From NCBI GenBank assembly GCA_963920765.1, contig OY987247.1, forward strand, positions 22,044,471-22,108,470: 64,000 nucleotides of DNA. The letters run 5' to 3'. The DNA is from Ulota crispa. Taxonomy: Eukaryota > Streptophyta > Bryopsida > Orthotrichales > Orthotrichaceae. Below the pieces are notes generated by a model, which was not told the origin of the DNA, searched no databases, and was given only the letters and a program-made list of their open reading frames with translations. A program made the position numbers and the translations under genes. Position 1 is the stretch's first letter. Each line of letters begins with the position of its first letter. This document shows, in pieces, positions 1,473 through 44,373 of this stretch.

Positions 1473-1499
1473 CTGTTGACACTACATGTTCCCAGGGAC

Positions 1500-7370: not shown

Positions 7371-10300
7371 GCTTCAGCTCAATGACCCCAGACACATAAT
7401 AGCGCCGCCAAACCAGCCGCACTTGCAGCAAAGAAGAAGAAGAAGAATAACTAGCTCTCACCTAATATAAAGTGTTAGTTTGTATTTTGAAATAAAGGGG
7501 AGGCTTTTACAAGAAGTTAGGGATGACATTTTGTTTTGCTATTCTCAGGATTGTAGATCCCAGATTTCAGGATTTAAGATCCACTTTTAGGGGCAGCTTG
7601 CTGTGAGAGTTTAGACCCACCTTTTGTGGATTGGAGAATGAAACATGTCATTTTCTAATCAATAACTTTACCTTCAAGAAGCTTTTCAATGATTCCTAGG
7701 GATTCGTTATGAGAGGCGACTATTCCATTGTTGCCTTGGGCATTATTATATTTTTGATTTTCTTTCTGCATAACAAGTTCTAGATTTCAACTTCAGAGTC
7801 TTGAGTTGATGATTTGGTGCAATGTTGGTATGCCGGCAATGCTAGAACCATTGTTTTGTGCGGGTAGCCGGACGTTGAGCATGAAGAAAACAGAGGTAGT
7901 CCTTGGATCCTGTCTGATCAGGTTTTTGTAGCATTATTGAGGTGGTTGGAAAATTGCGTGTTTTATGGGGCAATTGTTGTTTGGGTTTATGATCTGCATA
8001 CTCTTGTGAGGGAAAGTCAGTCTTAGATTAGATGCAATCCAGATAGCAATCCCAATGCATGCTAGTTGATGATTGAGAGGTTCTACTACTACCAAGAGTG
8101 ATTGTGAGCAAAGGAACAAGGATCCTTTAAGTATCCGGTTACCATTTTAGCACTAGAAATCATGTCAAGAAGGATCCATTGTTGTAGTAATTTGGGGTTG
8201 TAAGGGTTTCCTGAGTGACATGTCCGTCTAGAACCATTTCTGGATTGGCTATGAGGAAGTAATTGCATCCTGTTGTCCTTGTGTTCTTTGTTGTTATTTT
8301 ATTTAGTGATACTTCATTCACTATAAACTATCAAAGGGTAGGAACTCATGTTGCCTTCCTTAATCAAATAGCAAAATCCTTTGCTATAAAGGCTAAACTT
8401 ATCTTATCATTGTTAAATATCCTAACCGGAACCAGATAAAATAGCAAACATTTGGATAATCATTTGGATATTCTGGTTATTTTGTGTGTGTGTGTTTGTC
8501 TTTGTGTGTTGTTACAAATTCTAAACAAGGTTTTACTATCCTGTTCCAATCATCTTAAGGATCTACAAACTAAATCTCTAAAGGAATAATAAACAAGTCA
8601 CTTTATTGGCATTTTCACACTTTTGAATGCTAATAAGAGGATAAGTACTTTCTTGTGCTACGACAACTTCCATGACTTGTCCTTACCTTTGAATGTTAAG
8701 TTCCTTTCTTTTTTTTTCTTTAAAATTGTGCCAATAGGCTTTCAAGTCTCAAGTGTAATTTATGTCCATCCAGCGCCTACTCCTGTACAATGTGTATGGA
8801 TGGGAGAATACTATGTCACTCACAATGGTAACTTTGTCTTCTTAATTTTTGCTCAAGTAATTAAGGTGGATGCTATTGTCAAACCACCATTTGTGAGTAA
8901 TTGCAAGTCACAAATTTGCTGAAGCTTGACACAGCATTGCACTTGCAAATGAATACACCACCGCACAATTCCTTGCTCCTTATTTGCACTCTTCCTTGTT
9001 TCAAGATAGCACTCTAGTCCCACCATGGCTAGTTAGTTTGCCGTATTCCATTCAAACTGCAGTTATTTGATAATTTTGCAAGTATATTGTACAATAATAG
9101 TCTAGTCTACTTTGGAGCATCGTCCATGTTTGTTTCAAACCTCAATTTTATTATGCTCTATCTTGAGAGTGACGTTGAATATAAAAAAAATCCCTCATTT
9201 GCGAGGTCTTGCAAAATAGCGTCTAGAATGAGGAAAATGTTTATTTATTAAGTGTAAATAATTTGTACATATTTGCCCCTTCAACCAACTGCGATTTTAG
9301 TGTCTTGGTTTGTCAGCCCTAATTCTTTAGAAGTTTACTGCTCAAGACTTTGCAATATCACATACATGCACGTAGTGGTTAGATGGGGTGAGGAAGACGC
9401 TACTCTAAATGCAATTGTCTTACCTTGGAGTATATTATGCTTGTTCTATTTTGCATTTTTTTACTTCTATGAATGACAAGACATGAGGCTGCAAAATTTA
9501 TGCATATATAGCCAAACTCAAGGCAATTAGAGTAGGACTATCAAGAATTGGTAGTGCTGAATTTTTTCAATGCTGTCAATACTTTGATAGATGGAGCTAA
9601 ATGCAGTTGCCACCATAGAGATACATTTGGATTTGGGAAACTCATTTTTTGGCTAATTTGTGCTAATGTTGCTTAAAGCAAATTAAGGTTTGAAAAACTT
9701 ATGCAACTTCTATGTACTTAGCATAGTAGTTATTACTTGAAGCACATCCGGGTTTGATAGGGTCTTATATAGTCTAAGTCTGACTTGCTAGTGGTGCTTT
9801 TTTGTCATTACAGGGGGGCTGTAGGTGGGAGGTGTATCACCTGGACTCTTGGAGCACGCGCAAGGACAATTAGAGCAAGTGGAGCTAAGAATGCCTTGCC
9901 AAAGAAGGAAGATGAACACCAATGGCTCTTTGGCAAGGGATTCTAGGGAGTCAACAACTCCTGCAGGGGCGGCAAATCATGGAAAATCAGCTGTCTCTCG
10001 TGTTTTTGTTTTAGGGTTTCATGGAGTTGCTTGGGGCTTCATGGAGTTGCTGAAACTTCATTTCCAAGTACTTTGTTTCTACTTGACATTATGATTGCTT
10101 GTCATAATCTCTGGAGTGACTCCTATCCACCCTTGTTAGTTACTTTGTACATCTATATCTATAATGAAATGTTGTGGGTGTTATGTTTGTGGTGGTTGGT
10201 CATCTCAGATGAAGTATGAATGGATGAAAATTGATAACAAATCCCTGTTACTAAATTTGTAACCAAAATTTCTGTTCTGTAACTAACTGCCGCTGCGAGT

Positions 10301-12356: not shown

Positions 12357-14410
12357 TCATTGAAGAAATGCGCCATCAACAACAAAATAGTAGGCAACAA
12401 GAACGGTATGCTGCTCGCACAAACGATGAGCACAATTGACACCGTGCAGCTTGTGCTCTCCAACGATTTGCACACATGGATGACCTAAGGAATGACAACA
12501 TTGCACGTCAGCAGCATTGACATCGGAGGTGTGCCAATGAAGCCATTTGGCGAGCAAATATCCCTTAGGAACATCGCAAAAATGTTAGACAAGTGGATAG
12601 TGAAGCCCATGCAGCTAGGCGGGCAGAAATGAGGCAAGAGCAACCTCCTCCTTTGGTTCATCTTCCATTGGCGCGTTGGAACTTCAATGCTACTACAGGC
12701 TTTGTCCGTCACGTACTGCAAAGTATCAACGCATGATGCAAAATGTGTCAAGTTTTACATTGGCTAGAGGAGTAGATCATTGGTCAAGGCTCTACTAGAG
12801 CTCATCCTATGTTCACAATATGTTGTGATCATGGGAAGGTCAACCTTTCACCTTTGGCCGTGCCTCCAGAGCCGCTGCAAAGATTATTCCAAGACAACAC
12901 ACATGAGAAGAAAGCTTTTCAAGACAATATTTGTGCTTACAATAATGCACTATCCTTCACATCGTTTGGTGCTAAGATAGACGAGTGCTTCATGCAAGGC
13001 AAAAATTATACATTTAGACTTCAAGGCTCTTTGTATCATTGAATGGGTAATCAGGGAGAACCGTAAGTTTTTGCAACTGTATATTGCCAACAATAGCACA
13101 ATCCTAAATGGTCGAATGAATGTTTTTGAAAGTTTGGATTGCAATACAATGGAGCAATTGCAACTTATGATGCGGCAACACAACTTGTATGCACAACTTT
13201 ATGAAAACGTTTGTCAATGAATGGCTAATGAACCTGCAATTGAACTAGAACTCCGATTGTTGTTGGTGCAATGGCAAGATTCTTGCAAGTACAATATGCC
13301 TTCAGCAGATGAGGTTGATGGAATTTTGGTAGGAGATGATCACGACCAAAGCCTTTCTGAGCGTGATATTATCGTAAAGAGGTTGCATGGACCGCTTGAG
13401 AGCATCTCTAATTTGCATTCTACATATTCTCTATTGCACTATGTACTTTTATTTCTCGATGGACGTCCAGGATGGTCTTTGAATATCCCGTTGCAAGGTT
13501 TTCAATTTGACAAGGAGAATTTCACCAGTGATGACTCCAATGCAATCAAAGGGAAAGGTGGCTCAAAGCGCGTGACACAGATGCAATTCTACGCATACAT
13601 CCTTCATTTGCAAAATTGGCAAGAACACATATTTTTGGCCGAACGCCTTTTACAGCAGTACATGGTGGACACATGGGCCTGCGTGGAGCAGAACAAGCTT
13701 AAGTTCTTTGTTGATAATCACAGCAACCTTTGATGTTAGTTGTATTCAAGTATAATGGATTCGTTGAATGCTAGCAATCACAATGCAACACAAATTGGAC
13801 AAAGGATGATTTTACCATCTTCATTTTCTAGAGGCAATAGACAGATGAATCAGTTGTATCAAGATTCAATGGCCATTGTGCACTAGTATGGATACCCCAA
13901 TCTATTTATCACATTTACATGCAATCCAAAAGGGTCTGAAATCACAGCAAAACTAGAAGAAGGGCAAAGGCCACAAGATCGGCTAGAATTGGTTGCACAC
14001 ATGTTCAATATAAAGTTTCAAGAGCTGATGGATGACCTTAAAAATAGCAAAATCTTTGGCACCGTACTAGGCTACACATGGATTATCAAATTTCAAAAAC
14101 AAGGACTCCCTCATGCACATATATCGCTTATCATTGATGACTAATTCAAGTTGAGAACAATAGAAGATATCAACTCTGCAGTGTCAGCTGAAATTCTAGA
14201 TCTTGTAATTCATCTAGACGCTTACAAAACAATGACACAATGCTTGGTGCATGGTCCATGCGGTCCAGAATATCCAAATGCACCTTGCATGGAAGATAAA
14301 AAGTGTACAAAGCGGTTTCCTTGCGAGTTTGTTGACGAGACTTGTGCAGATTGAGATGGGTATCCTATATACATGAGACGCGACAACAATCGTTTTTTTA
14401 TTGATACAAA

Positions 14411-14650
14411 AGGTCAACGTGTGGACAATCAATGGATTGTGCTACACAACCTATACTTGGCCTCAAAATACAATGCACACATCAATGTTGACATGTGTTT
14501 TTTGTTTTTTTCAAAGTTGAGATAATAAATGTTTTTTTTTAATGCAACAAGTTTAAATGTGGGCAATAGATGGATAACAATGCATAACCTATAATTAGCA
14601 TTGAAATACAATGCACTCCTTAACATTAAATTTCATTTGCAATTTTTTTG
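14411..14650 (+). repeat. Tandem duplication inside the Helitron remnant
   Basis: The segment encoding VDNQWIVLHNLYLASKYNA (about 14418-14475) is followed by a diverged second copy at about 14556-14613 (VGNRWITMHNL, LALKYNALLN). Both copies end in T-rich runs. The family sequence resumes at 14702 (ICSSISAVKYLF). So an extra block of about 200 bp has been added within the Rep region. It is either a local duplication or an intron-like insertion that duplicated the exon end. Confidence 0.55.
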
Positions 14651-16690
14651 TATTATGTTGCCTAACTTGCACAACATTTTTGATAAATGGTTTTGATGCA
14701 GATTTGTTCTTCTATCTCTGCAGTCAAGTACCTATTTAAATATGTCTACAAGGGCCATGATTGTACAACTGTGGTTATCCAAGACATTAATGAGATTTAG
14801 CAATATATTGATGCACGTTATGTCTCAGCACTTGAGGCAGTGTGGCGGTTGTTTGGATTCAAGATGCATGATGGATATCCAACCATTCAACGTCTGCAAG
14901 TGCATTTGCCTAATCAACAACGTGTGACTTTTAATGCAAACGCCAACTTTGTGGCAATTGTAGATACAAAAGGTACACAAAGGACAACTTTGACGCAATG
15001 GTTTGAAGCTAATTGCACAATTTTGATAGCAAGAGAGACTACTTACGTGGACTTTCCTTTACGGTTCACGTCCTATAAGTTGACAAAGGCATGGACCATT
15101 TGAAAAAGTGGCTTTGCAATTGGACGTCATTACTTTGTGAGCTCTTCAGCAGGCAAAAGGTACTTTCTTTGAACGTTGTTGATCGTGGTGAAGGGGGCTA
15201 CATCATTTGAGGATATTTGCACATTTGAAGGCACTATGTACAACACCTTCAAGGCAGCTTGCGTTGCACGTAGATTGTATGAGAATGACAAGGAGTGGGC
15301 GCAATGTTTGCAAAAAGCGGCTTTGATGCAGTTTGGTACTCAATTGCGTTCACTTTCTGTGACAATTTTGACACATGGACCGCCGGCTGATCCACGCTAG
15401 CTATGGAAACAATTCAGCAAGAATTTATCTGACGACTATGCTCATCGACTTTGTCAAAACAGCACGGACGAGCCATCACAAGAGCAAATTTTAGCTCTTG
15501 TTTTGAATATGATTGCCCAATTTCTTCTACATTTGAGAAGACTTTGGGTGATTTTGGTCTACCAAAATTAGGTTTTCCTATGGAAGAGTTAGAAGGCAAC
15601 CAATTTGTTGTTGAACAGCTTGATTTCAATGTTGCAGAACTAAGAGATGAAGTTCAGCACAAGGTCTGCACACTTAATGAAGAACAATTGGATACTTACC
15701 AAAAAATAATGCAAGCTTGTGCACTTAACATTTTGGATAGAATCTACTTTGTGGATGGACCAGGTGGTACCGGAAAGACATACTTAGAGAATTTAATTTT
15801 GAAATCTATATGTAGCCAAGGCAAAATTGCTTTGGCAAAGGCATCTTTGAGAATTGCAGCACTTTTGCTATCTAAAGAAAGAAATGCGCATTCATGATTC
15901 AAAATTCCAATTGATTTAGATGCAACTTCCGTGTGCAATATTCTAAGGCAAGGCAACTTAATAATGATGGTACAACAAACAAAGCTAATATTGTGGGATG
16001 AGGCACCAATCATCAACAAGTTTGCATTTGAAGCTATTGACCGCACTCTTTGTAATATTACCAATCACAATATGTCATTTGGAAGGATTACATTTGTGAT
16101 GTGCAGAGACTTTAGGCAAGTTCTACCAATTGTACCTAAAGGCTTACAACCAAACATTGTAGCGGCATCAATCAAAGAATCTTATCTATGGAGGAATGTA
16201 TACGTCTGCAAGCTGCGTCAAAACATGTATACTGTTGCTGTCGTGCCACTTACAGATTTGGGAAATTGTACATTTGCAGATTGGCTATTGGCACTTAGTG
16301 AGTGCAAATTGGATTGTGTTGAGGATTACATTCAATGTCTTGAGTCCATGGTTGAAAGTGAGCACACATTGAACGGCCTGATTAATCAAATTTATTCTAG
16401 GATTACGGAAGTCGAACATGGAACACATGAATATTTCAGTAGCTGTGCAATTCTTGCTACACAAAAGAATGATGTTGCTCGGATTAGTACTACAATTTTG
16501 GATATGGTGCCTAGACAAAAGCAAGATTGTTTGAGTGCAGACAAAATTGATGATAAAGATGGTGCTAATGTAATATCAACCAAATATCTAAATACGCTGG
16601 ACATTAGTGTATGGCCTCCACACAAGCTTTCATTTAAAGTTGGTACGCATATTATGCTCTTGCAAAATTTGGACCCATCAAATGGACTAT

Positions 16691-16823
16691 CACTAGTAGA
16701 AAATTGTGTTGAAGTCAACGTAAACTACATGATGTTTCCAAGCTTCTAACGCAAGAAATCTGGGTTAGAAGCACGAAAACATCATGTAGTTTATATTGAC
16801 TTCAACACAATTTTCTACTAGTA
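16691..16823. mobile_element. CACTA-type MITE inserted in the Helitron helicase
   Basis: 133 bp with a near-perfect inverted repeat. The left arm starts CACTAGTAGAAAATTGTG and the right arm ends AATTTTCTACTAGTA. TAT flanks both sides (16688-16690 and 16824-16826). Removing the element plus one TAT gives GGACTATGCAATGGC, that is GLCNG in frame, which matches the Helitron helicase family. The inner arm (AACTACATGATGTTT) is shared with the MITE at 25298-25439, so the two belong to one family. Confidence 0.9.
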
Positions 16824-17212
16824 TATGCAATGGCACTCAACTCATTGTTAGGCAATGCTCAGCTCGAGTTATTGAAGTTGAAGTTATTACAAGCAATCAA
16901 GCAGGATATGTTGCATTCATTCCACGAATTGCGTTGACCACTAAAAATTCCGGGCTTCCTTTTTCAATTCATTGAAAGCAATATCCAATCTGCATTGCAT
17001 ATGCTATGAGCATCAACAAGTTGCAAAGACAAACACTTCCCAAAGTTGGTTTATGCTTGACTAAAGACATATTCTCTCATGGCCAATTATATGTTGCCTT
17101 CTCACGTGCGACGGCTTTTGAAAATGTTTCAATGCTCCTACATGCAAAATCTGCTCATCAACTAAATGCCCAACTCATGCGCAAAGTTGTGTACAAGGAA
17201 GCACTTTTGTAA

Positions 17213-18188: not shown

Positions 18189-18932
18189 AAGTAGTTGCAA
18201 GAAACACTTCACAGTTTTGTCTCAAACACCCTTAAAACCGGTAGTACTAGGTAGTACTATGAGCTTTTGAATTTTTTTTTATAAATAAAATAAAATATGG
18301 GCAATTTGTAGAGCACTTAAAATAGCATATTTGTGAAATTTTAGAAGTAAAAATTTTTATTCTAAAGGTTAAGCTCAAAAATAGACAGCCAGAAATTACC
18401 AACTAAAAGACGGTTTTTTTTTTTTTTTTTTTTTTACAAAATAGTGAAAAGATTCAAAAAAATAAACCAAAAAATGGCCATTGTTGATCTCTTTGAGTAG
18501 CTTCACTTGATGTAAGTGGTTTTTGTAGGAAGGTTTTTTTATTTCACCAATCATTCAAGAAAGGATGCCCACTTTGAGGGTGTGTGAATGGCATGGAATT
18601 TAGAATTTTATGAAACCCTTCTATACGTTCATGTAATGCTCTATGATGAACAAGTTCCCTAATTTGTGGCATGAGATTCACTTTTATGGAAGCAAAATAG
18701 TACTAAAAACCCCCAAAATGGCTAAGATAAACACCTATTTGGAGGCTGTTTAAAAATAGTAAAATAATTTTAAAAAAACTGCAAAAATTATGAAAGGTCT
18801 ATAACTATGACATGTACCTTCCATTGAAATTTCAGCTCAAAAGAACTTGCCGCGCAAAAGTCACAAGCCAAAAAGCACCTATAGGAGGTGAAGGGGACAA
18901 AAATTGGTACAAGTGTTTCTTGCAATCACCCT
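18189..18932 (+). mobile_element. F1 family non-autonomous element
   Basis: The left end is a diverged form of GGGTGATTGCAAGAAACACTT and the right end is GTGTTTCTTGCAATCACCC. Internal landmarks shared with the copies at 39988 and 43636 are GGTAGTACTAGGTAGTACTA, ACTAAAAACCCCCAAAATGG and GAGGTGAAGGGGACAA. It is about 744 bp with no coding potential. A 26-base T run at 18415-18436 lies inside. Confidence 0.75.
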
Positions 18933-19299
18933 ACCTTGCTTCGCTTGCAAATTGTTTTCTTGTTTAGTTTTGACTTCATATGCCTTTGCTTTTATCTTGT
19001 AGATATATAGTTGCTCATGTTGTATCTAATAGTAGTCATGTCAATATTAGTTTTATTCCTTTTGGCTTTACATTTCTTTGTTTGCCAAAAAAAATGTTTA
19101 ATTTTTACTTCATGTGCCTTTGCATTGATCACGTAGATAGTTTCTCAAGTCATAGGTGTTAGAGGTCATGACAGTTCCATCTGTGTTTTTTGGCTTTGCT
19201 TTTTTAGGCTTGCAACTATTAATTTGTTTAGTAATGACTTGATATGCCTTTGGATTTATCCCTTTATTGGTTTTTTTATTGGCACTTAATGGCCAATAT
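18933..19299. other. No gene; lead-in to the tandem array
   Basis: T-rich sequence with imperfect repeats of TTTGCTTTTATCTTGTAGATA and CATGTGCCTTTGCATTGATC. These may be more degenerate members of the same array or an older duplication. Confidence 0.3.
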
Positions 19300-20690
19300 T
19301 TTGTAGATTGATGAACGTCATTAATTCCTAAGTCCACTTGGTTACTCTAAATGCTTTCATTCTTCTTTTTTAGTTTTTCTAATGGTATATGATATTATGA
19401 TAGAGTGCAGAGTGAAGTACTTCATTAATTAGTGAGTCCACAAGGTTAATGTGAATGCTTTTGTTTGTTTTAAGTATATTTTTGATACTATTTGATGGTT
19501 GAGATTGTGTTGATTGTTGAACTTCATCAATTAGTGAGTCTGCAAGGATACTCAAGAGTCAAGATGCTTTCATACTTTATTCTTGGCTTTATTTTGTTGA
19601 ACTTTTGTGGCTGATGTTGTGTAGATTGATGAACTTGATTAATTAGTGAGTCCATGTGATTACTCTAGATCCATTCACTTTGGGTTTATTGATGGTATTT
19701 GTTGGCTGAAATAGTGTAGGTTGATGGACTTGACAAATTAATGAATCCACAAGGTTCATTTGCAGCTAAGCACTTTTTTGGTAGTTTAGGATTTAAGGTC
19801 ATTGATGGCTGATGTTGTGTGCATTGTTGAATTTCATTAATTAGTGAGCCCATGTGATTACTCTAAATATAGTCAATCTTTTTTTGTGGGTTTTATTGAT
19901 GGTATTTGGTAGTTTAAATAGTGTACATTGATGGACTTCATGAATTAATGAACCTGCAAGGTTCATTTGCAACTAAGCGTTATTTTTGTAGTTCTAATTG
20001 ATGGTCTTTGATGGCTGATGTTGCTTATATTGTTGTACTTGCTCATTTAGTGAGTACAAGAGGCTCATGTGGATGTTTTTTTTTATTTTATTTTATTTTT
20101 TTGATGGTATGTCATGGCTGAAATCATGGAGTTTCATGGATTTGACGAGTTAGTGAGTACACATGGTTACTTTGGTTCCTTTTAGTTTTAGTTTTTGGTT
20201 GTTATTAATGGTATTTGATGGCGAAAATAATGTAGAATAATGTACTTGATTAGTTAGTGAGTCCTCAAGGTCACTAAGATTCCTTCTTTTCCTTTGGTTT
20301 TGGTGGTTTTGGTGATATTTGATGGCTGAAATAGTGTATAATGATGTACTTGAGTAATTAGTGAGACTATTTGGTCACTAGGGATGTTTGTTTTATTCAT
20401 TAATTGGATTTGTGGATGGTATTTGGTGCCTTAAATAGTGTAGATTGTTGTTTTGGATCAATTAGTGAGTTCATGAGGTTCATTAATATGTTTTTTTATG
20501 GTATGTGATGGTTGATGTTGTCGAGATTGATATACTTCATCAATAAGTGAGTCCATGAGGTTCATCTAGATGCTTTCTTTCTTCTTATTTTGGATTTTCT
20601 ATATGTAATTGGATTGCTAAAACCGTGGAGATTGATGTACTTGATTAATAGTGAGTCCACAAGGATGTTATGGATGCTTGACTTCTTCTA
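19300..20690 (+). repeat. Minisatellite-like array, about 100-bp unit, about 14 diverged units
   Basis: Units begin near 19310, 19425, 19520, 19628, 19722, 19820, 19927, 20030, 20130, 20233, 20340, 20447, 20526 and 20630. Each has the phrase GATTGATGNACTTNATTAAT, then TAGTGAGTCCACAAGGTTCA, then a TTTATTGATGGTATTTGATGGCTGAAATA-like spacer. The period is 79-115 bp and units are strongly diverged. No frame stays open through it. Confidence 0.8.
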
Positions 20691-21317
20691 TTTTGGTATT
20701 TTGCTTAGTCCTTTTTTGAGTCCTTTTTTGTTTGAAATGTGTTTTGGTTGATGTGTTTGACTAAAAGGTTGTTGTCAAAAAAAATTCCTTATATTATTTG
20801 AACTAGGTCCTAGAGGTTGCTTTCATTATCGTTTTTTCTAAAGATAGGGAATGGAAGGGTTCTCCATGTTTTAATCTCTTTTGTTGCCTGTGTAATGAAA
20901 GTGGATGACTATTGATTGAAATTGGGGCTTCTCAAAGGTGTTGTTCATTGAGATAGGTGTCTATTTTGTGTTTTTTTCCTTATATCTTTTTTTTGGTAGG
21001 AGTATTGGCTAAGGGGCAAGCACCAACCTCTAGTTGTCAAATTGTTGCTTTTTGGGGTTTTTTCTCTTGTAGAACAAGATAAGGGGGTGGTAGCTTTAAT
21101 TGTGGTTTCTTCTTTAAATTTTTAATGATTACTAAGGACGGGCAATGCAAGGTTCTCTATGTACTAATCTCATTTGATTAAATTGTGATAATTGTGGGTT
21201 ACAATTTGTGGAATTTGGATGGAAGCCTTTTCTTAAATCCTTCATGAATTTGTGTGAAGTATTGAAAATTGCAACAAATGTTTGCCCGTTTATATGTAAC
21301 TGACTTGATTTTGTGGA
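20691..21317. other. No recognised gene
   Basis: T- and G-rich sequence that could be an upstream intron or promoter of the fragment that follows. No motif is assigned. Confidence 0.3.
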
Positions 21318-22231
21318 ATGATCTTGGTTGATGTAGGAACAGCAACAACATTGGTGGACTCTAGCAAGGGTAATGTGGGTGGAGGGCTTGTTGATAGGGG
21401 CAAGGTGTCACAAGATAGTGTGGACAAGATAGCAAGATTTTTTGCTGGGTACTTGCAGTATTTGACCAATCAAATGAAGAAACCCTCGGAAGCTTTGCCA
21501 CAGACACCCAATTCTTCTTCTAGAATGGATTCAACTGATGTCTCAAATTGTTCCAAGCACAAGAATAAACGCAAGGAATATGATGACAAAGCATCTGGGC
21601 AAACGGCAGCTGGGATCAAGAGGCATGAGATCCACTTTGCTGTAGGTGGTTTAATTGACAAGCAGTCCCTTGGCTAGAATGCATGGGACGCAACAATTAG
21701 GAATTCAATTTGCCAGTAATGAGACTTGAGCTGCCTCAAATATTATGGCCAGAGCACGGAGGCACTAAATCTAGTCAAGATGGAATTGGATAGGGATTTT
21801 AATTATGTTGGGAGCACATTGGGCTTGCCCGCTTTGGAAAAATCTATCAAGGATTTCTTGAAAATACAGCATCACAACTTGAAGATAAAGTAGCTTGATG
21901 GCAAGGATATGCGTCCCGTTTACAATCAATCAAAGCAGTGAGAGTCTCTCAAAGAGTATTGGAAATCCAAAGAGCAGTAGAAGATGACAAAGAAGATGAC
22001 CAATGCGCGGAGCCATATGAAGGAGACTTCCAAATCGGGTTGCAAGGGCAAGCGTGTAAGTTATTTGTATTACTAATGCTATGCAAGATATTTGCAAGTT
22101 CCATTGTTTTCAAATCTAATATTTTTGCTGACTGGCTAATAGGCAAGGTTGGAGACACCAGCAAGTTTGGATGAATCAGAGGGTGGAGGACAAGAATCAA
22201 AGCGTAGAAGACAGCAAGTGAAGGATCCTCA
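21318..22231 (+). pseudogene. Unrecognised multi-exon gene fragment
   Basis: An acceptor (GATGTAG) at about 21336 opens a frame of about 113 codons to a stop at 21675-21677. It contains QDSVDKIARFFAGYLQYL, a Lys-rich patch (KHKNKRKEYDD) and HEIHFAVGGLIDKQSLG. The frame continues past stops at 21675 and about 21717 with AWDATIRNSICQ and ALNLVKMELDRDFNYVGS. A last exon part ends ...GCKGKR at 22055. It is followed by a GTAAGT donor, an 87-base intron (22056-22142, acceptor CTAATAG) and an in-frame exon ARLETPASLDESEGGGQ...RRRQQVKDP with another GTAAGT donor at 22232. The highly charged composition suggests a nuclear DNA-binding type protein. It lies beside CACTA-type sequence and may be that element's accessory gene or a captured host fragment. 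Family unknown. Confidence 0.5.
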
Positions 22232-22346
22232 GTAAGTGTGCATGTGCTTGTGGATGTCGTTAACTTGGAAGTTTGTCTATTTTCTTTGAAAATCAAGCTT
22301 TCATTTGATTGATAATTTTTGTTATTTGCTTAGCTAATTGAAATTC

Positions 22347-22598
22347 CTAAACTCCCACTAGTTGTGTGTCTACTTGTGCTCCGCTCATAATGCCTCCCCT
22401 TTGCTCTGCCAAGCTGCCACCCAAAGCTTTGGTATCCGCAAAATAGGTGGCCAACATAGATTTTATAGCCAATACGGCAGCATTAGTAGCTTTTGAGCTC
22501 TCAACTATCTTTTAAACCTCCTTTTGAAGTTCCCTCTGTCCAGTCTCAAGGACCCTTTGTCTAGTCTCAAGGGCGGATATTTTGGCTTCATCTGCCAT
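22347..22598 (-). pseudogene. Small coiled-coil frame, one internal stop
   Basis: ATG at 22596-22598, 83 codons, stop at 22347-22349. The sequence starts MADEAKISALETRQRVLETG and continues through RELQKEV, a TAA, KIVESSKATNAAVLAIKSM and LGGSLAEQRGG. The heptad-like Leu/Ile/Val spacing suggests a coiled coil. It lies on the strand opposite its neighbours, inside the probable CACTA region. No family recognised. Confidence 0.35.
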
Positions 22599-22665
22599 AT
22601 TCTACATGTAGTAACATGAATGACATTAGTACTTCATATAAGATACTACTACCAAACTAATTCCA

Positions 22666-23115
22666 CTCAATCCACAAAGCTACCAAAATTCACCCAAGTA
22701 GCATGAAAAAAATAAAAATAAATTAGCACCAGAATTTGAGACTTAAACAAATTGACTAATTGACTTTGCATGACACAACTTGCATCCTCTACCCCTTTAT
22801 AGCAAATCCACAAAGCTACTTACCAAAATTCACCCCAAAAACAAAAACAAAAATAAAAGATAAAAACAAAAAAATTCATATTTAAAGGACTTCTCATCAC
22901 ACAAAACAACCCTAACTACCCTGCCCCTTCACAACTAATCCACAAACCACTGCAATTCAACCAAAGAGCATGAGAAAAACAAAAAAATTAAAAAAAAATA
23001 TTAAAAGTTGAGAATTTAAGGACTTCTCTTTGCACAAAAGAGTCCTCACTCCCTTGCTACTCACCTCAAATCCACATGGCTACCAAAAAGCATGAAAAAT
23101 AATGCAACTTCCATT
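22666..23115 (+). repeat. Tandem block, about 133-bp unit, four partial units
   Basis: The phrase AATCCACAAAGCTACC, then AAAATTCACC, then AGCATGAAAAAAAT, recurs near 22671, 22806, 22937 and 23070. A-rich runs and ACTTCTC(AT)(TC)(TG)CACAAAA follow in each unit. Units are diverged and non-coding. Confidence 0.6.
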
Positions 23116-23329
23116 GTTCATTCAACAAAATCAAAGCACCACCAATTCTAGTCAATTAAGGTAAACAAATTTGGATTATGGTTTAATCATACACTATGTA
23201 GAATGCTGTCATATGATAGCATCTAGAGCAACCTCACCATCTCAAGAAATACCAAATATAAGTAACATAGTATGAGGTGCTAAAGACTAATTAAAGACTA
23301 TTACAATCACACAGTGAAATCAAACAATG

Positions 23330-23620
23330 AAAGACAACTAGGGAACTACTGAACACTTACTAGTGACTTGTACAAACACCAATATCTAAGATATGACTAC
23401 ATAATCATTGAGAAATTACTAAATACTCACTAGCCACTAATATTACAACTACAAAACAAATGAGAAATGATTGAACACTCACTAGTGACTAATAATACAA
23501 CTACAAAGCAACCCATAAATGACTAAACATTCACTGGTGACCAATAATACAACTATTACCAATATACATAGATATGACTGCAAAGCAACTAAGACATGAC
23601 TCAACCTAGATTATGGTGGT
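23330..23620 (+). repeat. Short tandem array, about 62-bp unit
   Basis: Four units share GAAATTACTAAATACTCACTAG, then TGACTAATAATACAACTACA, at about 23345, 23410, 23465 and 23515. CACTAGTGACT and GACTAC words relate it loosely to the arrays at 24.5 and 27.1-27.6 kb. Confidence 0.5.
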
Positions 23621-24129
23621 CCAGGTCAATACTGATTAATAATTAATATATAATAGAATGAGGTTTGATTTTGTCTGAAGCCGTAGTCCTCCACATGATT
23701 GGAGGAAGGCTAATTGTCTCATTGGAGAGGAAAAGGCACCCAAAGAGGGGGTGAAATGTCACAAAGGGAGAGGAAAGAGCATATGGATGGTGAAAAGTCA
23801 TTGGAATTGTGAAAGGTCATTGGAATAAATTGCCAAAAGTTATTGTAATTTTTCAAATTTGGTATTCTAAAGTATTATAAATTTGAGACTCTATATTCCA
23901 CTACGTTTCTCAATTTTGAAATTAATGAAGGAGGAAGAAGAAAAGGTAGGGAAAAGACATAGGTTGTGTGCACATTCATTGTTTTAAATTGCATTTACGC
24001 ACTTCATTGGAACGACGGGTCTCATTACTAGTAATTAATAAACAATAAACAACTTTTACAAGAACCATGATCTCTATGGTACCTCTACAAGCGGCCTCAA
24101 AGATTAACTTAACTTTGATTAAGTTTTGT

Positions 24130-24400
24130 AGCCCAAAGTGGGGGGGGGAGTTCTAATGGGGTGAAAGAGGTGCTAAAAGATAAAGGCAAGGTTGATGAGG
24201 TTATATGTCCATATATCGTGGATGCGGAAGATGACGTAATTTGGGAGTAGCCCTTCTTGTTGGAGATGGCCCTTGATGTCCTACCTAAAAGTGAATCCAA
24301 GGCAATTGATATCATCACTCTTCCAGAAGAGGTACTCATTATCCAATGTAGCAAATTGTTTGGATGTGATGTTGACTTCATGTATTTTTATTGCAAATAG
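24130..24400 (+). pseudogene. Possible coding fragment upstream of the FCP1/TNP1 gene
   Basis: An open frame with one internal stop (TAG at about 24248): GVKEVLKDKGKVDEVICPYI, VDAEDDVIWE, PFLLEMALDVLPKSESKAID, and ending FGCDVDFMYFYCK. Acidic/basic composition and codon-like periodicity suggest that it was an exon. It precedes the FCP1-like exon by 400 bp on the same strand and could belong to the same gene. Not recognised. Confidence 0.35.
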
Positions 24401-24479
24401 TGTAAGTAATGGTAGAAATCTAGCTTTTAGATGAAATAGTAGTTATGAGTTATTAGTGTTATTGTACCATTTACAAGTT

Positions 24480-24705
24480 GTACTATTTATCTGTAGTGGG
24501 CATTTAGTCATTTACTAGTTGTTGTGCAGTCAAGTTGTACTATAAGGGAGTGGCATGTAGTCATATACTAGTTGTTTTGCAGTCATGTAGTCATATATTA
24601 GTTGCTTTATAGTCATGTAGTCATACACTAGTTGTTTGGAAGACATGTAGTCATATACTAGTTGTTTTGCAGTCATGTAGTCCTAGTCATCTAGTCATAC
24701 GGACC
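24480..24705 (+). repeat. Array of TAGTCATATACTAGTTG words (subterminal-like)
   Basis: GTAGTCATATACTAGTTG(T)TTTGCAGTCAT repeats about five times at 30-40 bp spacing (about 24510-24700). The core is the reverse complement of the ACTAGTATATGACTA core of the array at 27.06-27.6 kb. The two arrays therefore form an inverted pair around the FCP1/TNP1 coding region, as subterminal repeats of a CACTA element do. Confidence 0.65.
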
Positions 24706-24797
24706 TACCAACTAACCACTTGTCAAATAGTGTTGAAGTGTTTCACTTTGTACTTACTCAAAGATTGGTTATTACAAGTTGATGGTAGTTTGGACTA

Positions 24798-26328
24798 ATG
24801 GGTGATGTTAAATTGGAATACCAGATTTTGAAAGAGGCAAGGGCAAAGTCTCCAGGGAGGATTACGAAAATTGATCAAAGTGGAGTCCCTCCGGTATTGG
24901 TCCCTCTAGTAGTGGATCTTTCTACACCACTTCCGCCACCACTACTTCATGTTGTAATAGAAGTGACAAACCAGGTGAGACCTTATTCAGTGTCACCATG
25001 TTTGGATGGCAAACAAAAGAAGCTGGTTATATTTGGGTTGTTTGGGACCTTGCTAGACTGTGACAATGACCTACACCCTAATTATAAGATTCTAGAGCCT
25101 GCATTCCAAACGAGCTCATGTGGGATACTATGTCATCCTTGGTTATTGGAATTCTTTCCAATGTGTTTCCTAAATTTCACAATTGCATTCTAGTGTTCCC
25201 GCACTGCATTATTTGTGGCGGATGTAGTTGGTGCTTTGATGCAAAGGTTGGAGGGAATAGATAGTACCCGGCCTTTAGTTGGAGTAGATGACATTGACAC
25301 TAGAAAAAAATTGCGTTGGAATCTACATGATGTTTTTTTTCCAAACACAAAATTTTGCGCTAGAAACATGAAATTTTGCGTTGGGAACAAAAAAACATCA
25401 TGTAGTTTATGTTGACTCCAACGCATTTTTCTTCTAGTGAAAGATAGTGACATCTTTGGGGGACAAGCCAATAGAGGAGAAGGCATTGCACAAAGTTTTT
25501 AGTACATGGCCACAGTGGAATACAAGCAATATCATAATTATAGACGCGGATTGGACAAAACCTAAATCCAACTGTCCAGCTAACATCATAGTGGCCTCAT
25601 CCTTCTTTGCAAAGGATTTGACTCATCAAGCAGACGATATTGTGTATTTGAAAACCTCTTTGCGGCCCCAATTGCAAAGGTTTTTGCATTGCAATGCCAT
25701 CATTGATTTCTTCACAAAATATCCCCAACATCAGATCACAACAAATGGCCACCCTAGTGACCATGTGCGTGCAAGAAACCACAAGGGCAAAAGTCTAGCA
25801 ATTAATCCACTAGTGAATCCAGGTTGAAATTTGAGTTTGTAGTTTTGGAGTTGACATTGAAGTTCCAATCTTTTTGACACATTATCTCTCTTGATTGAAG
25901 TAGAAGAAGCAAGACAAGAAGAAGCCTAAATCGACTACAAAGAAAGGACAAGAGCATGAAGGGCAGAAGGTGAGATTTTAACATTATAAATGGAGGCTAA
26001 GTATTGAAATTGAGATTTACATATATTAAATTATTGAGTCTATTTTGTTGTTTTGTTGATACAATTCACCATGGGATAGAAGGTGTGCCTCCTAAATTCA
26101 AAAGGTGGAAGGCAAAAGGTGGTGGCCATAGGATCTATCAGTGGTTTTGGAGATCTTGTCCACTTTGATAAGATCCCTCAAAGGTGGTGCAAAGTAGACG
26201 TCATTCAAGCCCTACATGCGGATACGTCTCTGATAAAGCCAAATCCTAAAGGTGATCAACTGACTATGGACGATGTTGTAGGTGGAAACACTATCTGGGA
26301 GGAAAAGCATGTAAAACCCTCCACCTAA
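24798..26328 (+). pseudogene. FCP1-like phosphatase domain joined to an En/Spm TNP1-type domain (Pack-CACTA candidate)
   Basis: Plus strand, several exons. Exon 1 starts at ATG 24798. A Pro-rich stretch precedes an FCP1/NIF-like HAD phosphatase domain: KKLVIFGLFGTLLD, HPWLLEFFPMCFLNFTIAF, then a TAG at 25191-25193 where the family has Trp, CSRT, DVVGALMQRLEG and RPL. A 142-bp MITE (25298-25439) interrupts it, and the same frame resumes with WNTSNIIIIDADWTKPKS, KDLTHQADDIVYLKTSLRPQ and LQRFLHC. A small Lys-rich exon (about 25903-25969) ends at a GTGAGA donor. The final exon (about 26081-26328) has KVVAIGSISGFGDLVHFD, WCKVDV, ADTSLIKPNP, MDDVVGGNTIWEEKHV, which fits the C-terminal TNP1/En/Spm-type transposase domain. 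The catalytic nucleophile Asp of the phosphatase motif reads Gly. So a host-like phosphatase domain appears captured by, or fused into, a CACTA gene. Whether the exons were ever spliced together is inferred. Confidence 0.7.
25298..25439. mobile_element. CACTA-type MITE inside the FCP1-like exon
   Basis: 142 bp. It starts CACTAGAAAAAAATTGCG and ends CGCATTTTTCTTCTAGTG. The inner arms contain CTACATGATGTTTTTTTTCC and AAAAAACATCATGTAG, shared with the MITE at 16691. Flanking trinucleotides are TGA and AAA, so any target copy has diverged. Removing the element plus 3 bases keeps the phosphatase frame open on both sides (145 bases moves the frame exactly as needed). Confidence 0.85.
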
Positions 26329-27059
26329 AATTGTCAGATCTTGTTTTATGTTTGTTGGAGAGTGGTACAATCCCACTATACAATCCATGGTTGCAATTAC
26401 AAATAGATTTTGGAACTTTATAGCTTGGAGGTAGACTCTCATCACTCTAGCTACTACATTGTAACTACTTTTGATATTTTGCTTTCATTGTCTATATGAA
26501 ACTGCAAGCCTATGCACATGACGTTGAGTGGATGGGTGTAGAGAATGGTGTGTGATAGTTTGTGATTGCTAATTAAGTAGTGGATACATTATGAGATTTT
26601 GATTGACCATATATCGTTAATTTGTAGTTTACATGGAGTATGCATTGAATTGTGATTGAATAGCTACTGCAATTTGTGATAGTATCTTCATTGTAATGTG
26701 TCTTTGCAGTGACTATAGAACAAACTAATTGTGATTTTGGAGTGAGCTCAGTTTATTGCATGGTGAGACTATATTTTGATTCTAAGTCTAATTAGGGTTT
26801 GCAAAATGGTGATTGATTTTGTGACTGGTGTCTAACATATTTGTGACTTCTCTATGATTATATAATAAATTATTTGTTCGTATTTTGTGACTACAATTGG
26901 TATGATTTTGTGATTGGTTTGTGACTATATTCTACAAGAATAGTTACTACATGTTGAAGTAGTGATTGTGTTGTCACTACAATTTAGCTTCATTTCTTCT
27001 CTCTTGTGACTAAAATATTATTGAAGTAGACATCTTGCTCACAACAACTGCAGCTTGAT
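26329..27059. other. 3' flank of the TNP1-type exon
   Basis: No gene seen. TTTTGTGATTG/TTTGTGACT words recur every 40-70 bases between 26545 and 26960. This is a different short-word enrichment from the array that follows. Confidence 0.35.
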
Positions 27060-27610
27060 TTAGAACTAGAAGACAACTAGTATATGACTACAAGACTAGT
27101 AATGTATGACTAAAAGAGTACTAGTATTTGACTAAAAGACGACTAGTATATCACTAAAAGACTACTAATATATGACTAAAATACTACTGCTATATGACTA
27201 AAAGAGTACAAGAATATTACTAAATGACTACTAATATATGACTAAAAGACAACTAATATAACCTTAAAAGATGACTAGTATATGACTAACAAATGACTAG
27301 TATATGAATAAAAGACAACTAGTGTATGACTAGTATATGACTAAAAGACTACTAATATATGACTAAAAGACAACTAGTATATTATTGAAAGACTACTAAT
27401 ATGTGACTAAAATACTACTACTATATGACTAAAAGAGTACTAATATATGACTAAAAGACAACTAATATGTGACTAAAAGACAACTAGTATATTACTAAAA
27501 GACTACTAATCTATGACTAAAAGACTATTAGTATATGACTAAAAGAGTACTAATGTATGCCTACAAAACAACTAGTATATGACAAAATGAGAACTTATAG
27601 GTCACTAATC
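27060..27610 (+). repeat. Array of about 21-bp units, TATATGACTAAAAGACAACTA
   Basis: About 20 adjacent copies by eye of TATATGACTAAAAGAC followed by AACTAG or TACTAATA, with small changes. The core is the reverse complement of the word repeated at 24.48-24.70 kb. The density and spacing are those expected of subterminal binding sites near the end of a CACTA transposon. The end itself was not identified; related words continue to about 27.99 kb. Confidence 0.8.
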
Positions 27611-28489
27611 TATTACTAAATGTAGACTAATGTCAAGATAACAAATGTGAATCATTTAAAGCAATTACAGAGATCAGGACACGTTGCACTAGGTAGTTGG
27701 TTTGATTTTGTCAGTAGAAATGTAATGGCGCCCTTGGGAATTGAGAAAACTTAAATGGTGGTAGAAAAGAAGGGGCAGCTAGATTCAAGAAAGAGAGAAC
27801 GTTTCTTTCTCCTTGATAAAGACAAAGCCCGCAAGACTTAAAAGATGAGATACTATAATGTCCTAAATGACTAAATGACAAAGACTACTAAACAACTGAA
27901 GAATGACTAAATCGTGACTAAATGAGACCAGTTGTGATATAGTCATTTAGCAAGAAATGACTCATTTCTTAGTCATTTGTAGCAGTCATATAGGACGCTA
28001 TTTTTTACTTGTGTGTGCCCTCTCTTCTCTCAAAGGTATAATTTCACACATCGCATGTAAAAATCCTTTGTCCTTGCTTAGATAAACCATTCAAGATTCA
28101 ATATCTTTTAAAAAGACATGATTATTTCACTAGTAGCATTGCCCTTAAGGCGTAATTTTTTCCAAGAGCTAAAATGGGCATTTCCATTCAATTGGACACT
28201 GTTTGTATATTTAAGTCAATGATGCTTTCACTTGAGCTTTCACTTGGTAAAATGAGACATAAGGCTATCTATACCTATAATTAAATGTGATGACGGTTAT
28301 GTCTTTGGTGGTTAGTCAATTGAATTAACTAAATTTGTTAAAGTATGGATTAGAATCTTGCTGGAGATCCGGTACTTGGGCTGGGGATCCAAAACTCGGC
28401 CTGGGATCTGGGACTTGGCTGCCATGATTAAGAATATAGTTACGGGATTGGGCCTCAATACCTAGGTAGAGAAATTAGGGCAGCTGGCA
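27611..28489. other. Flank of the array, no recognised gene
   Basis: 27840-27990 contains further GACTAAATGAC/TAGTCATTTAG inverted words that form a weak hairpin. From 28330 the sequence turns GC-rich. No coding signal. Confidence 0.35.
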
Positions 28490-34923: not shown

Positions 34924-35138
34924 CACTAGAAGAAAAATAAGGATAAACGATTGCCACAAATCACTATGACTAGGTCACCAGAATTGTCTTGCAACTGCAC
35001 AAACAATTGCACAACAACTGCACGACTAGATTGTAGTTGTGCAAATGTTGTATAGTTGTTTGTGCAGTTGCAAGACAATTCTGGTTACCTAGTCGTTGTA
35101 ATTTGTGGCAATGGTTTATCCTTTTTTTTCTTCTAGTG
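34924..35138. mobile_element. CACTA-type MITE (215 bp)
   Basis: Starts CACTAGAAGAAAAATAAGG and ends CCTTTTTTTTCTTCTAGTG. The arms pair over nearly 100 bases (GATTGCCACAAAT with ATTTGTGGCAAT; CCAGAATTGTCTTGCAACTG with its inverse). AAA flanks on both sides (34921-34923 and 35139-35141) form a perfect 3-bp target duplication. Confidence 0.88.
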
Positions 35139-37871: not shown

Positions 37872-38700
37872 GGGTGATTGCAAGAAAGACTTCATATTTT
37901 TGTCTCAAAATGCCTCTTTTTGGATGTAACACTAGCAATGCTACCAATAGTGCAAGTACTACACAACATCCTCGCAATGGAAATTTGAACCATCCGTCTC
38001 ATACTAGATCTATTGGGAATGAGGCACGTGGCATGTCATTTAGGAAGGCCAACTATCAATATTCAATGAATGGATGAAAAAAAATTCACATCCTCAAATG
38101 ATGTCAGTGGTCAATGGTATTATGTAGTGCCAGTAAATGGAGAGGAGTACTATGTAGGCATGTGGAGCAAAAATTACCAAAATTTCTAGGCTATCTTGTT
38201 TTTAGTTTTAGTAATTACAAAAAAACCCAAAAAATAAAACAAAAAACGGTCACTTTTGATCTTTTTGAGTAGCTTCACCTTATGCAAGTGGTTTTTGGAA
38301 GAACTTTTTTTATTTCACCAATGCAGAGAGAATGGATGCCCACTTTGAGACAATGTGCATGGCATGCAATTTAAAATTTTGTGAAACCCTTCTATACATC
38401 CATGTAATGATGCCAAATAAACCACTTCCTTGATTTGTGGCACAAAATTTGCTTTTCTGGACCCAAAATAGTACTAAAAACCCCCAAAACCACAAAGGTA
38501 GACATGCAATTGGGGTTCACTTAAAAATAGTAAAATAATTTTAAAAAACACGAAAAATAAGGAACATTTATAATTTTGATGTAAACATTAATTTGAAATT
38601 CCACATCAAAATGACTAGGTATACAAAAGACAAGAGCCAAAAACCACTTGCAAATGGTGAAGGGGACAAAAAATAGTACAAGTATTTCTTGCTATCACCC
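37872..38700 (+). mobile_element. F1 family element, subfamily with TCTCAAAATGCCTC
   Basis: Starts GGGTGATTGCAAGAAAGACTT and ends AAGTATTTCTTGCTATCACCC. It shares a specific left part with the copy at 51117 (TTTTTGTCTCAAAATGCCTC, GGAGAGGAGTACTATG, CATGTGGAGCAAAAATTACC). The right part is common to all F1 copies (ACTAAAAACCCCCAAAA, GGTGAAGGGGACAA). Around 38122 it preserves the site that is occupied by an F2 insertion in the 51117 copy. Confidence 0.8.
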
Positions 38701-39987: not shown

Positions 39988-40719
39988 GGGTGATTGCAAG
40001 AAACACTTCACACTTTTGTCTCAAACACCCTCAGTAGTGGTAGTACTAGGTAGTACTATGAGCTTTTGGAATAATTTTTTTTTAAATAAAATAAAATATG
40101 CACAATTTGTAAAGCACTTAAAATAGCATGCTTGTGAAAATTCAAACCTAGAAATTTTTTATTCTAAAAGTTATGCGCAAAAAAAAATCACCAACAAAAA
40201 TCCAATTTCTTTCTTGCTTTCTAGAAAATAGCAAAATCATTCAAAGAAATAAAATAAAAAATGACCTTTTGAGAATCCATTTAACATATTCATAGAGTGC
40301 AATTGCTTTGCTGAAGAATTTCTTCATATTTTGCCTATGAAGGGAAATAGGATGCCCACTTTGAGACAGTGTAGATGCCATGGAATTTATGATTATGCAA
40401 AACCCTTCTACAAATGCATGTAAGCATGCTCCATAAACAACATCCTTGATTTATAGCCCTAGAAAAGCTTTTTTGGACCCAAAATACTACTAAAAACCCC
40501 CAAAATGGCCAAGATAGACACCTATTTGGGGGCTATTTAAAAATAGTAAAATAATTTTAAAAAATCCTAGAAGAATTACAAAAGGTTTGTAACTATGACA
40601 TGTACCTTCCTTTAAAATTTCAGCTCAAAAGAACTTGCTACGCAAAAATTACAAGCCAAAAAGCACCTGCAAGAGGTGAAGGGGACAAGAAAAAGTACAA
40701 GTGTTTCTTGCAATCACCC
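39988..40719 (+). mobile_element. F1 family element (732 bp, best-preserved ends)
   Basis: GGGTGATTGCAAGAAACACTT at the left and AAGTGTTTCTTGCAATCACCC at the right are perfect inverted ends over about 20 bases. Internal landmarks match 18189-18932 (GTAGTACTAGGTAGTACTAT, ACTAAAAACCCCCAAAATGG, TATGACATGTACCTTCC). No clear target duplication. Non-coding. Confidence 0.85.
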
Positions 40720-43635: not shown

Positions 43636-44373
43636 GGGTGATTGCAAGAATAACCTTTCCTGCTTTTTGTCCCCACCACCTCTTGCGGGTGGTTTCTGGG
43701 TCCTATCTTTTGTGGTTTTAGTCATTTTGACCTAAAATTTCAGAGTAAGGTGAACATGAAAATTATTGACATTTGTGATTTTTTTGTTTTTTTTAATTAT
43801 ATTACTATTTTTGAGTGGACCCCAATTGCATGTCTACCTTGGCAGCTTTGGTGGTTTTTAGTACTATTTTGGATCAAAAAAAGCAAATCTCATGCCTCAA
43901 ATTAGGGAAGTTGTTCATTAGGAAGCATTACATGGATTTGTAGATTGGTTTTACAAAACTCAAAAAACTCTGCCTTGCACATTGACTCAAAGTGGGCATC
44001 CTTTCTGCCTCCATTGGTGAAAGACAAAAACCTTCCTCCAAAAAGCACTTGCATTCGTCCAAACTAATGAGAGATCAAAAACAATTGTTTTTTACTTTAT
44101 TTTTTTGAACTTTTTACTATTTTCTAAAAAGCAAAAAAGAAATTGTCTTTTTATTGGTAATCTCTGTCCCTCTATTTTTGTGCATAACTTTTAGAATAAA
44201 AAATTCTAGTTTTGAATTTTCATGAATATGCTATTTTAAGTGCTTTACAAATTTTCCATATTTTATTTTATTTTATTTTTGAAAAAATTATTTCAAAAGC
44301 TCATAGCACTACCTAGTACTACCAGTATTAAGGGTGTTTGAGACAAAACTGGTAGGTCATTCTTGCAACTACC
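43636..44373 (-). mobile_element. F1 family element, inverted, with TAT target copies
   Basis: The left end GGGTGATTGCAAGAATAACC is followed by CCCCACCACCTCTTGCGGGTGG, the inverse of the right-end interior of other copies. The right part reads CATAGCACTACCTAGTACTACC, the inverse of the left landmark. It ends GGTCATTCTTGCAACTACC. TAT flanks both sides (43633-43635 and 44374-44376). Confidence 0.82.

Follow-up and report, generated by a model that had tools for sequence, protein, structure and literature searches.

A NIF-family pseudophosphatase domain in the putative second gene of decayed CACTA elements in the moss Ulota crispa

Does a CACTA-type transposon in the moss Ulota crispa carry a phosphatase domain as part of one of its own genes, and if so, in what capacity? 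The question is raised by positions 24,798 to 26,328 of a stretch of 64,000 nucleotides (contig OY987247.1, positions 22,044,471 to 22,108,470 of the forward strand; hereafter the window), where a region resembling FCP1/NIF-like phosphatases is followed, on the same strand, by a lysine-rich exon and an exon likened to TNP1 of En/Spm. The original prediction read this arrangement as a CACTA transposon that had captured a host phosphatase domain. Having searched the 274.8-Mb assembly (157 contigs; match counts of repeat copies obtained from it are lower bounds), we favour, with moderate confidence, a reading of the locus as a decayed large CACTA element that combines a tnp2 gene with a divergently oriented TNPA-like gene, the latter containing a selected NIF pseudophosphatase that would act as a docking module.

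The NIF-like domain and the conserved 3' exon

The peptides on which the original prediction was built were all recovered at the expected places, strand and order. The N-terminal part of the NIF-like domain (24789-25193, plus strand) contains FGTLLD and HPWLLEFF and ends in a TAG codon (25191-25193), where a related element on contig C8, hereafter the C8 sister, encodes W; the same frame continues past the stop over 25194-25295 (plus strand). Within the exon lies a fold-back miniature inverted-repeat transposable element (MITE) of CACTA type (25298-25439, unstranded, 142 bp, ends CACTAGAA..TTCTAGTG), which has a relative at 16687-16823 and no match in the ten other loci searched (L020-L028 and L040, the last of which is the same place as L023). 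The C-terminal part with motifs III and IV follows at 25441-25827 (plus strand; NIIIIDADW, DDIVYLKTSLRP). The lysine-rich stretch is likewise present between the phosphatase-like and the 3' exons (25904-25969, plus strand), its 5' half being, as judged by eye, out of frame with the C8 sister. The series ends with the conserved 3' exon (26080-26328, plus strand), an open reading frame (ORF) of 82 residues that contains KVVAIGSISGFGDLVHFD. In the genome, at least 45 matches were found for the N-terminal NIF exon, at least 55 at 49 loci for the C-terminal NIF exon (exon C) and at least 68 at 67 loci for the 3' exon.

The two regions belong together far beyond the window. A NIF match lies upstream on the same strand at 39 of the 67 3'-exon loci, at a distance of 254-443 bases in 32 of these 39, and at 41 of the 67 once nine further NIF matches are added. 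Conversely, 38 of the 49 exon-C loci have the 3' exon after them. Under random placement (500 runs, with contigs C3, C4 and C7 sized by guess and with uniform placement that ignores the clustering of transposons), the number of loci with NIF upstream averaged 0.1 and reached 2 at most. The union of NIF and 3' exon is the rule, not an accident of one element, and the alternative outcome of the multicopy search, that the two regions always lie in separate contexts, did not materialize. Judged by their sequences, dozens of decayed CACTA copies carry a putative second gene with a phosphatase-like domain.

The assignment of the upstream region to the NIF family holds for the family of copies, because 12 of 16 aligned copies match Pfam NIF (PF03031), and that family alone, at E<=0.01 (best 1.2e-12), whereas the window copy alone, contrary to what had been proposed for it, gives no match even at an E-value of 10. 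The alignment comprises 16 of the 20 copies read, the window copy included. One copy could be aligned from residues 6-182 onto positions 5-158 of the 160 of the NIF profile and is thus nearly full length, and the NIF of the C8 sister comes close to the cut-off (E 2.3e-4, 21.3 bits, cut-off 21.8). With a profile built from three NIF sequences, ORF 25447-25827 ranks first among 346 window ORFs and 500 shuffles, at just 4.2 bits. Queried against the sequences of the PDB, the joined region of the window gave no match, and the weak Pfam matches of the window exons to AKAP28 and Myosin_TH1 are unrelated and were dismissed. In a FastTree phylogeny, the 16 transposon NIFs are separated from seven other NIFs with a support of 1.000, and therefore one origin suffices within this sample.

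Genome-wide, Pfam NIF yields at least 86 matches, of which that at C6:5834962 (196 bits), with DLDETL intact, looks, from its sequence, like an ordinary host NIF gene. The remaining genomic NIF loci were considered as members of the transposon NIF lineage and rejected, as just 11 of the 85 loci found with Pfam NIF have the 3' exon after them and 74 do not. For 71 of the 86 matches there is no exon-C match nearby; for eight of these 71, a scored Transposase_21 is no more than 20 kb away (150 of the 596 genome candidates for Transposase_21 were scored, and all neighbourhood counts rest on these 150), and with eight being slightly above the maximum of 7 under random placement (mean 2.3), some of these loci may have a looser link to CACTA elements. 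A second dispersed repeat of about 9.6 kb (C5:17283049-17292640 and C1:5861667-5871203, about 86% identical; L034, L035, L037 and L038) contains a NIF that retains the first catalytic Asp (DLNG); no transposase was recognised by eye among the ORFs of the two copies read, for which no family search was made. Furthermore, a NIF gene is found twice on C8 (C8:20840423-20841789 and C8:20870393-20871759, 29,970 bases apart), and the identical match scores of the two copies suggest a recent segmental duplication.

The surrounding element and its two genes

Ordered similarity to the C8 sister places window positions 1-28013 (unstranded) within a single CACTA element. The C8 sister (C8:4681709-4700396, 18,688 bp) has both of its ends, with terminal inverted repeats (TIRs) of 28 bp that match at 25 of 28 positions. 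Similarity between the two elements extends from C6:22040017 to window position 28013 and is collinear over window positions 1-3004, 9623-10043, 19263-22350 and 24192-28013, with 22350-23631 inverted. The whole element spans approximately C6:22040009-22072483, that is 32.5 kb with later insertions included, and its right end is window position 28013; it is thus far larger than the extent that the two short-word arrays flanking the exons had implied. The left end lies off-window in L042 and bears the TIR-like sequence CATAGGTAAAAAAACATCGTCCTATATGAC. The right TIR (27986-28013, minus strand) reads CACAAGTAAAAAATAGCGTCCTATATGA inward, and similarity to the C8 sister stops at 28013/4700396. The terminal 154 bp matched 40 places among those scored, of 88 candidates, a count that is no independent proof of the boundary since the query itself ends at 28013.

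The extra size of the window's element is due to later insertions, probably including a Helitron in the gap of similarity to the sister. This decayed Helitron (window 13221-17210; Helitron_like_N 7.4e-5, PIF1 1e-34) harbors the CACTA-type MITE at 16687-16823. An array of repeats of about 104 bases is found upstream of the second gene at window positions 19290-20700; the C8 sister has similar ones at about 4692400-4693700.

The first gene of the element is represented in the window by Transposase_21 (tnp2) pieces at 21-620 (minus strand; two ORFs, each with a Pfam E-value of 2e-19) and, in its 5' part, by a Transpos_assoc-like domain at 1224-1481 (minus strand; Pfam E 2.1e-5, 25.0 bits, barely missing the cut-off of 27.7). 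DUF4218 (2.2e-30) and DUF4216 (1.3e-8) are located directly left of the window, in the window's own element. The minus strand of the C8 sister likewise encodes Transposase_21 (7e-38), DUF4218 (6.4e-30) and DUF4216 (3e-10), and its plus strand the NIF gene. Together with the TIRs of the sister, these domains bear out the proposal of a CACTA-type transposon. Among the 67 3'-exon loci, a Transposase_21 was scored within 20 kb at 19 and none at 48. At 13 of the 19, it lies upstream on the opposite strand, with two loci in each of the three other arrangements. Random placement gave this divergent arrangement 0.48 times on average and three times at most, and the orientation bias of 13 versus 2, 2 and 2 is independent of the guessed contig sizes and of uniform placement.

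The ends of the elements read CACAA and CACAG in the C8 sister and CATAG and CACAA in the window's element, so that CAC is found at three of the four ends and CACTA at none. The flanking triplets, where a 3-bp target site duplication would lie, are tat/tgt for the window's element and acg/aca for the C8 sister, two of three bases agreeing in each pair. On its sequence, we class the element as CACTA because of its Transposase_21-type transposase and its architecture, its ends being slightly off the consensus.

Arrays of short words in subterminal position are a further CACTA feature and are present in the window as well as in the C8 sister. TGACTA occurs 18 times in 27001-27500 and 5 times in 27501-28000, and TAGTCA 8 times in 24501-25000, while 30 first-order Markov (Markov-1) simulations gave at most three TGACTA per 500 bases. 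The right array consists of 22-base units of the ACTAAAAGACTACTAGTATATG type (27065-27587, plus strand; best Tandem Repeats Finder score 549) and is common to the C8 sister, which has 12 TGACTA in C8:4699501-4700000 at the right, 3 in its left-end bin and 9 about 2 kb inside the left end. The left, TAGTCAT-type array (24494-24700, plus strand) lies between exons of the second gene and has its counterpart at C8:4697001-4697500, inside the sister. The oppositely oriented arrays on either side of the exons are thus present above chance level as originally described, but the left one is internal and no element end; since it is located inside the element and between exons of the same gene, the two arrays cannot be the two ends of the element, and a small element bounded by them was therefore ruled out.

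The second gene begins with a Transposase_24-like and a coiled-coil-like exon (both by eye), after which come the NIF-like, the lysine-rich and the conserved 3' exon, and the C8 sister has the exons of this gene in order on one strand. The 5' exons occupy 21309-22240 (plus strand, limits by eye) with an ORF at 21309-21677, for which 12 genomic matches were found; for eight of these, including that of the window, a NIF exon follows on the same strand 2.7-3.6 kb downstream. These exons resemble Transposase_24 by eye, and Pfam gives no match for them. The same applies to the 3' exon, whose likeness to TNP1 we assume from its position and its resemblance only, Pfam again giving no match. A search of the whole genome with the Transposase_23 model was silent, but so were its 14 controls.

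The second gene of the window is further marked by an inversion of 1.77 kb (22350-24121, minus strand) that was observed in this copy alone and contains half of the coiled-coil-like exon (by eye). The segment is inverted relative to each of the eight sister loci that have both segments (L021, L022, L023, L024, L025, L026, L027 and L028), and in those eight loci the other half of the split exon (24121-24400, plus strand) adjoins the half that is inverted here. A reverse-strand frame at 22607-22350 was considered as a separate gene and ruled out, as it is the inverted half of this exon.

In having a tnp2-type transposase, an accessory gene, short TIRs and short-word arrays, the element resembles En/Spm and Tam1 with their TNPD/TNP2 and TNPA/TNP1 (as outlined in the text of PMC2613891). 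It differs from them in its CACAA, CACAG and CATAG ends, in its divergent genes, in the NIF pseudophosphatase of the second gene and in accessory exons that lack Pfam matches. Furthermore, Jozin of Chenopodium and other angiosperm CACTA elements also have one gene that combines a transposase-associated domain with Transposase_21, DUF4218 and DUF4216, and another that carries additional domains; however, the gained domains reported for such elements are Transposase_24 and Peptidase_C48, unlike the NIF found here, and the main text of that account contains neither the word phosphatase nor FCP1 (PMC8978399). In the open PMC literature, with subscription papers and Repbase outside the search, we found no fusion of a CACTA element with a NIF/FCP1 phosphatase.

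Other features of the window include three further fold-back MITEs (4442-4571, 45848-45975 and 34924-35138), of which the first and third have CACTA-type ends and the first two are 88-89% alike, as well as a dispersed repeat of about 300 bases, 65-81% identical among its copies (18447-18746, 38218-38517, 40234-40533, 51837-52136 and, inverted, 43787-44062). A fragment of the end of a kinesin motor domain (62183-62644, minus strand; 8.4e-6, 25.4 bits, cut-off 29.3) may belong to a host gene or may have been captured. In the assembly, arrays of TTTAGGG gave 1,188 forward and 587 reverse matches, and the backward control gave none, which marks the genome as being of plant type. Viral and prokaryote collections were also searched for relatives, and nothing was confirmed, as expected for a genome of plant type.

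Catalytic residues and selection

We compared the catalytic residues of 20 copies with those of SCP1, CTDNEP1, TIM50 and host NIF, bearing in mind that copies of the same subfamily are not independent. Neither Asp of the catalytic DxDxT is present in any of the 20: the position of the nucleophile is occupied by N in 10 copies, G in 6, R in 2 and E and I in 1 each, and that of the second Asp mostly by F (9 copies) or H (7), otherwise by Q (2), Y (1) or T (1). At the Thr/Ser position of motif II, C (8 copies) and G (8) prevail over N (2), S (1) and a gap (1). The Lys of motif III is retained in all 20 copies and the Asp of motif IV in 18, the other two having N. As both catalytic Asp are absent throughout, a working phosphatase is unlikely, and with DxDxT in none of the copies we name the domain a pseudophosphatase instead of classing it as a phosphatase.

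A NIF domain over nearly its whole length is what the transposon copies share with SCP1, CTDNEP1 and TIM50 (PF03031), and the replacement of both Asp in all copies is what sets them apart from the phosphatases of the family. The TIM50 of the PDB likewise lacks both, having T and E in their place. TIM50 is an import receptor and as such a precedent for a NIF domain in a receptor role. Moreover, the N at the nucleophile position in half of the copies is the same change as in the SCP1 chains 2ghq and 6du2, which we take to have been used as substrate traps.

The ratio of nonsynonymous to synonymous substitution rates (dN/dS), determined as pairwise values among copies, was below 1 for the NIF domain in all close comparisons. 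Eight of the 11 close loci were used for reading and for dN/dS (omitted were L025, the L007 locus and L027, which is a duplicate), and their 28 pairs range from 0.24 to 0.70 with a median of 0.43. For four distant copies (6 pairs), the synonymous divergence (dS) is saturated in two pairs, three pairs with dS >1 have values of 0.18-0.23, and the closest pair has 0.44. Dead copies drift toward 1, and values below 1 therefore indicate constraint during the life of the elements; in the sequences, we see signs of purifying selection on the NIF domain between transpositions. In five of the six deep pairs between subfamilies, dS is above 1 or saturated. Since dozens of copies share the NIF domain and their synonymous divergence is this high, it was not captured recently by this single element. 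Of the original prediction, the CACTA-type element and the union of NIF and 3' exon thus stand, and the capture, if there was one, was not a recent event in the element of the window.

Alternatives and the possible role of the domain

Several observations weigh against a selected docking module in a TNPA-like gene. The exons of the window match neither NIF nor Transposase_23 in Pfam, whether searched separately (E up to 1) or joined (E up to 10), the three-sequence NIF profile puts the joined region at chance (2.2 bits versus 3.1 for the best shuffle), and single-sequence AlphaFold models of both exons were unusable, with values of the predicted local distance difference test (pLDDT) of 34.5 and 37.6. 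The 5' exons of the second gene have no match to any Pfam model, transposase models included. Hidden Markov model searches with 11 copies of the 3' exon, for which a TNP1-type domain of En/Spm had been claimed, found a match to Transposase_23 (PF03017) in none and to no other Pfam transposase model either. The window copy itself is broken by the stop, the MITE, the disagreement of frame in the lysine-rich exon (by eye) and the inversion, and therefore makes no such protein. Constraint is weaker on the 3' exon, whose dN/dS has a median of 0.60 and exceeds 1 in 3 of 28 pairs (1.31, 1.41 and 1.24), all of which involve one copy. Furthermore, the left-end arrays of the C8 sister are thinner than its right-end ones, and related loci exist in which no NIF region was found.

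The latter loci bear on the history of the domain. For 26 of the 3'-exon loci there is no NIF match, and eight of these were read over 3.4-3.6 kb each, a NIF exon further upstream escaping such a reading. All eight have the 3' exon (63-105 bits), and none has a NIF region when searched with a profile of 20 copies; the domain is therefore not needed by all such elements. Two of them (L061 and L065) show, by eye, Transposase_24-like, coiled-coil-like and lysine-rich stretches. As related loci without NIF exist, derivation of the domain from a host gene is plausible. It is, on the other hand, possible, though less likely than not, that the domain is ancestral to the second gene of this lineage and was lost from the NIF-less elements, not gained by the NIF-bearing ones. 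On the tree of the 3' exon, the NIF-less copies are not grouped in a single clade, and one of them (L062) falls, with weak support, among NIF-bearing copies; against this, the tree is based on about 80 residues and has mostly low support, and eight of the 26 NIF-less loci were read. An ancestral NIF would alter the history of the domain and not its working.

A passenger role appears unlikely to us. It would mean that a host fragment was caught once in an ancestor and has since been copied without function, as in Pack-CACTA elements, and fragments of genes are indeed common in CACTA elements (PMC8978399, PMC13317346). Many copies are broken, with stops in many, both catalytic Asp are gone in all 20, and NIF-less loci exist, all of which a passenger would allow for. 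Less easily reconciled with it are dN/dS values below 1 in all 28 close pairs and of about 0.2 in three deep pairs, the retention of the motif III Lys in all 20 copies and of the motif IV Asp in 18 while both catalytic Asp were replaced, and the order and spacing preserved in dozens of loci. Likewise, the elements described here resemble Pack-CACTA and other gene-capturing elements in that a CACTA transposon carries host-type sequence (PMC13317346), but differ from Pack-CACTA in that the domain is part of the element's own gene and has dN/dS below 1, and in that both the window's element and the C8 sister contain transposase pieces.

We regard it as very improbable that the domain has remained active, at least until recently, through an unusual catalytic site and serves to dephosphorylate a protein of the host or of the element. 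Although the retained motif III Lys and motif IV Asp as well as dN/dS values below 1 could be read in this sense, loss of the nucleophile, as far as is known, abolishes the activity of haloacid dehalogenase (HAD) phosphatases, and all 20 copies have N, G, R, E or I in its place and F, H, Q, Y or T in place of the second Asp. Finally, the NIF region and the 3' exon might belong to separate genes that nested insertions brought side by side, as a window full of repeats might suggest. This can be dismissed almost entirely, given that order and strand agree, and for the most part spacing too, at 39 loci, where random placement reached no more than 2, and given that 38 of 49 exon-C loci have the 3' exon after them.

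We therefore return to the reading that we favour, a TNPA-like second gene with a selected NIF pseudophosphatase, in which the transposon probably uses the domain as a binding part and not as an enzyme. TNPA of En/Spm binds the subterminal repeats of its element; transposition requires this protein, which can also block transcription or regulate it (as outlined in the text of PMC2613891). By analogy, the exons of the second gene, if expressed as one protein, would most likely give rise to a product that binds the TGACTA/TAGTCAT arrays, and its dead NIF domain would dock onto a phosphorylated host protein, for example the tail of RNA polymerase II, or onto the transposase. A NIF fold that lacks the nucleophile and keeps the motif III Lys would fit a reader of phosphorylated partners.

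On a more far-reaching and rather doubtful scenario, which we offer only tentatively, a phosphatase domain was acquired by a CACTA lineage, was disarmed there and became a permanent part of the end-binding accessory protein of that lineage. As a reader of phosphoproteins, the domain would tether the ends of the element to RNA polymerase II in its phosphorylated state, or to some other phosphoprotein, and thereby couple transposition to host transcription or the cell cycle. With Asn at the nucleophile position in 10 of the 20 copies compared and an invariant Lys in motif III, it would be the natural counterpart of the laboratory Asp-to-Asn SCP1.

Pieces of host genes are known from DNA transposons. 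For the biology of CACTA elements, these findings point to a transposon that retains a disarmed domain of a signalling enzyme in its own second gene, in dozens of copies and several subfamilies. The presence of NIF-bearing and NIF-less relatives in one genome provides a natural comparison, and if the domain binds phosphoproteins, it would open a direct way to learn how CACTA elements perceive or exploit the transcription state of their host.

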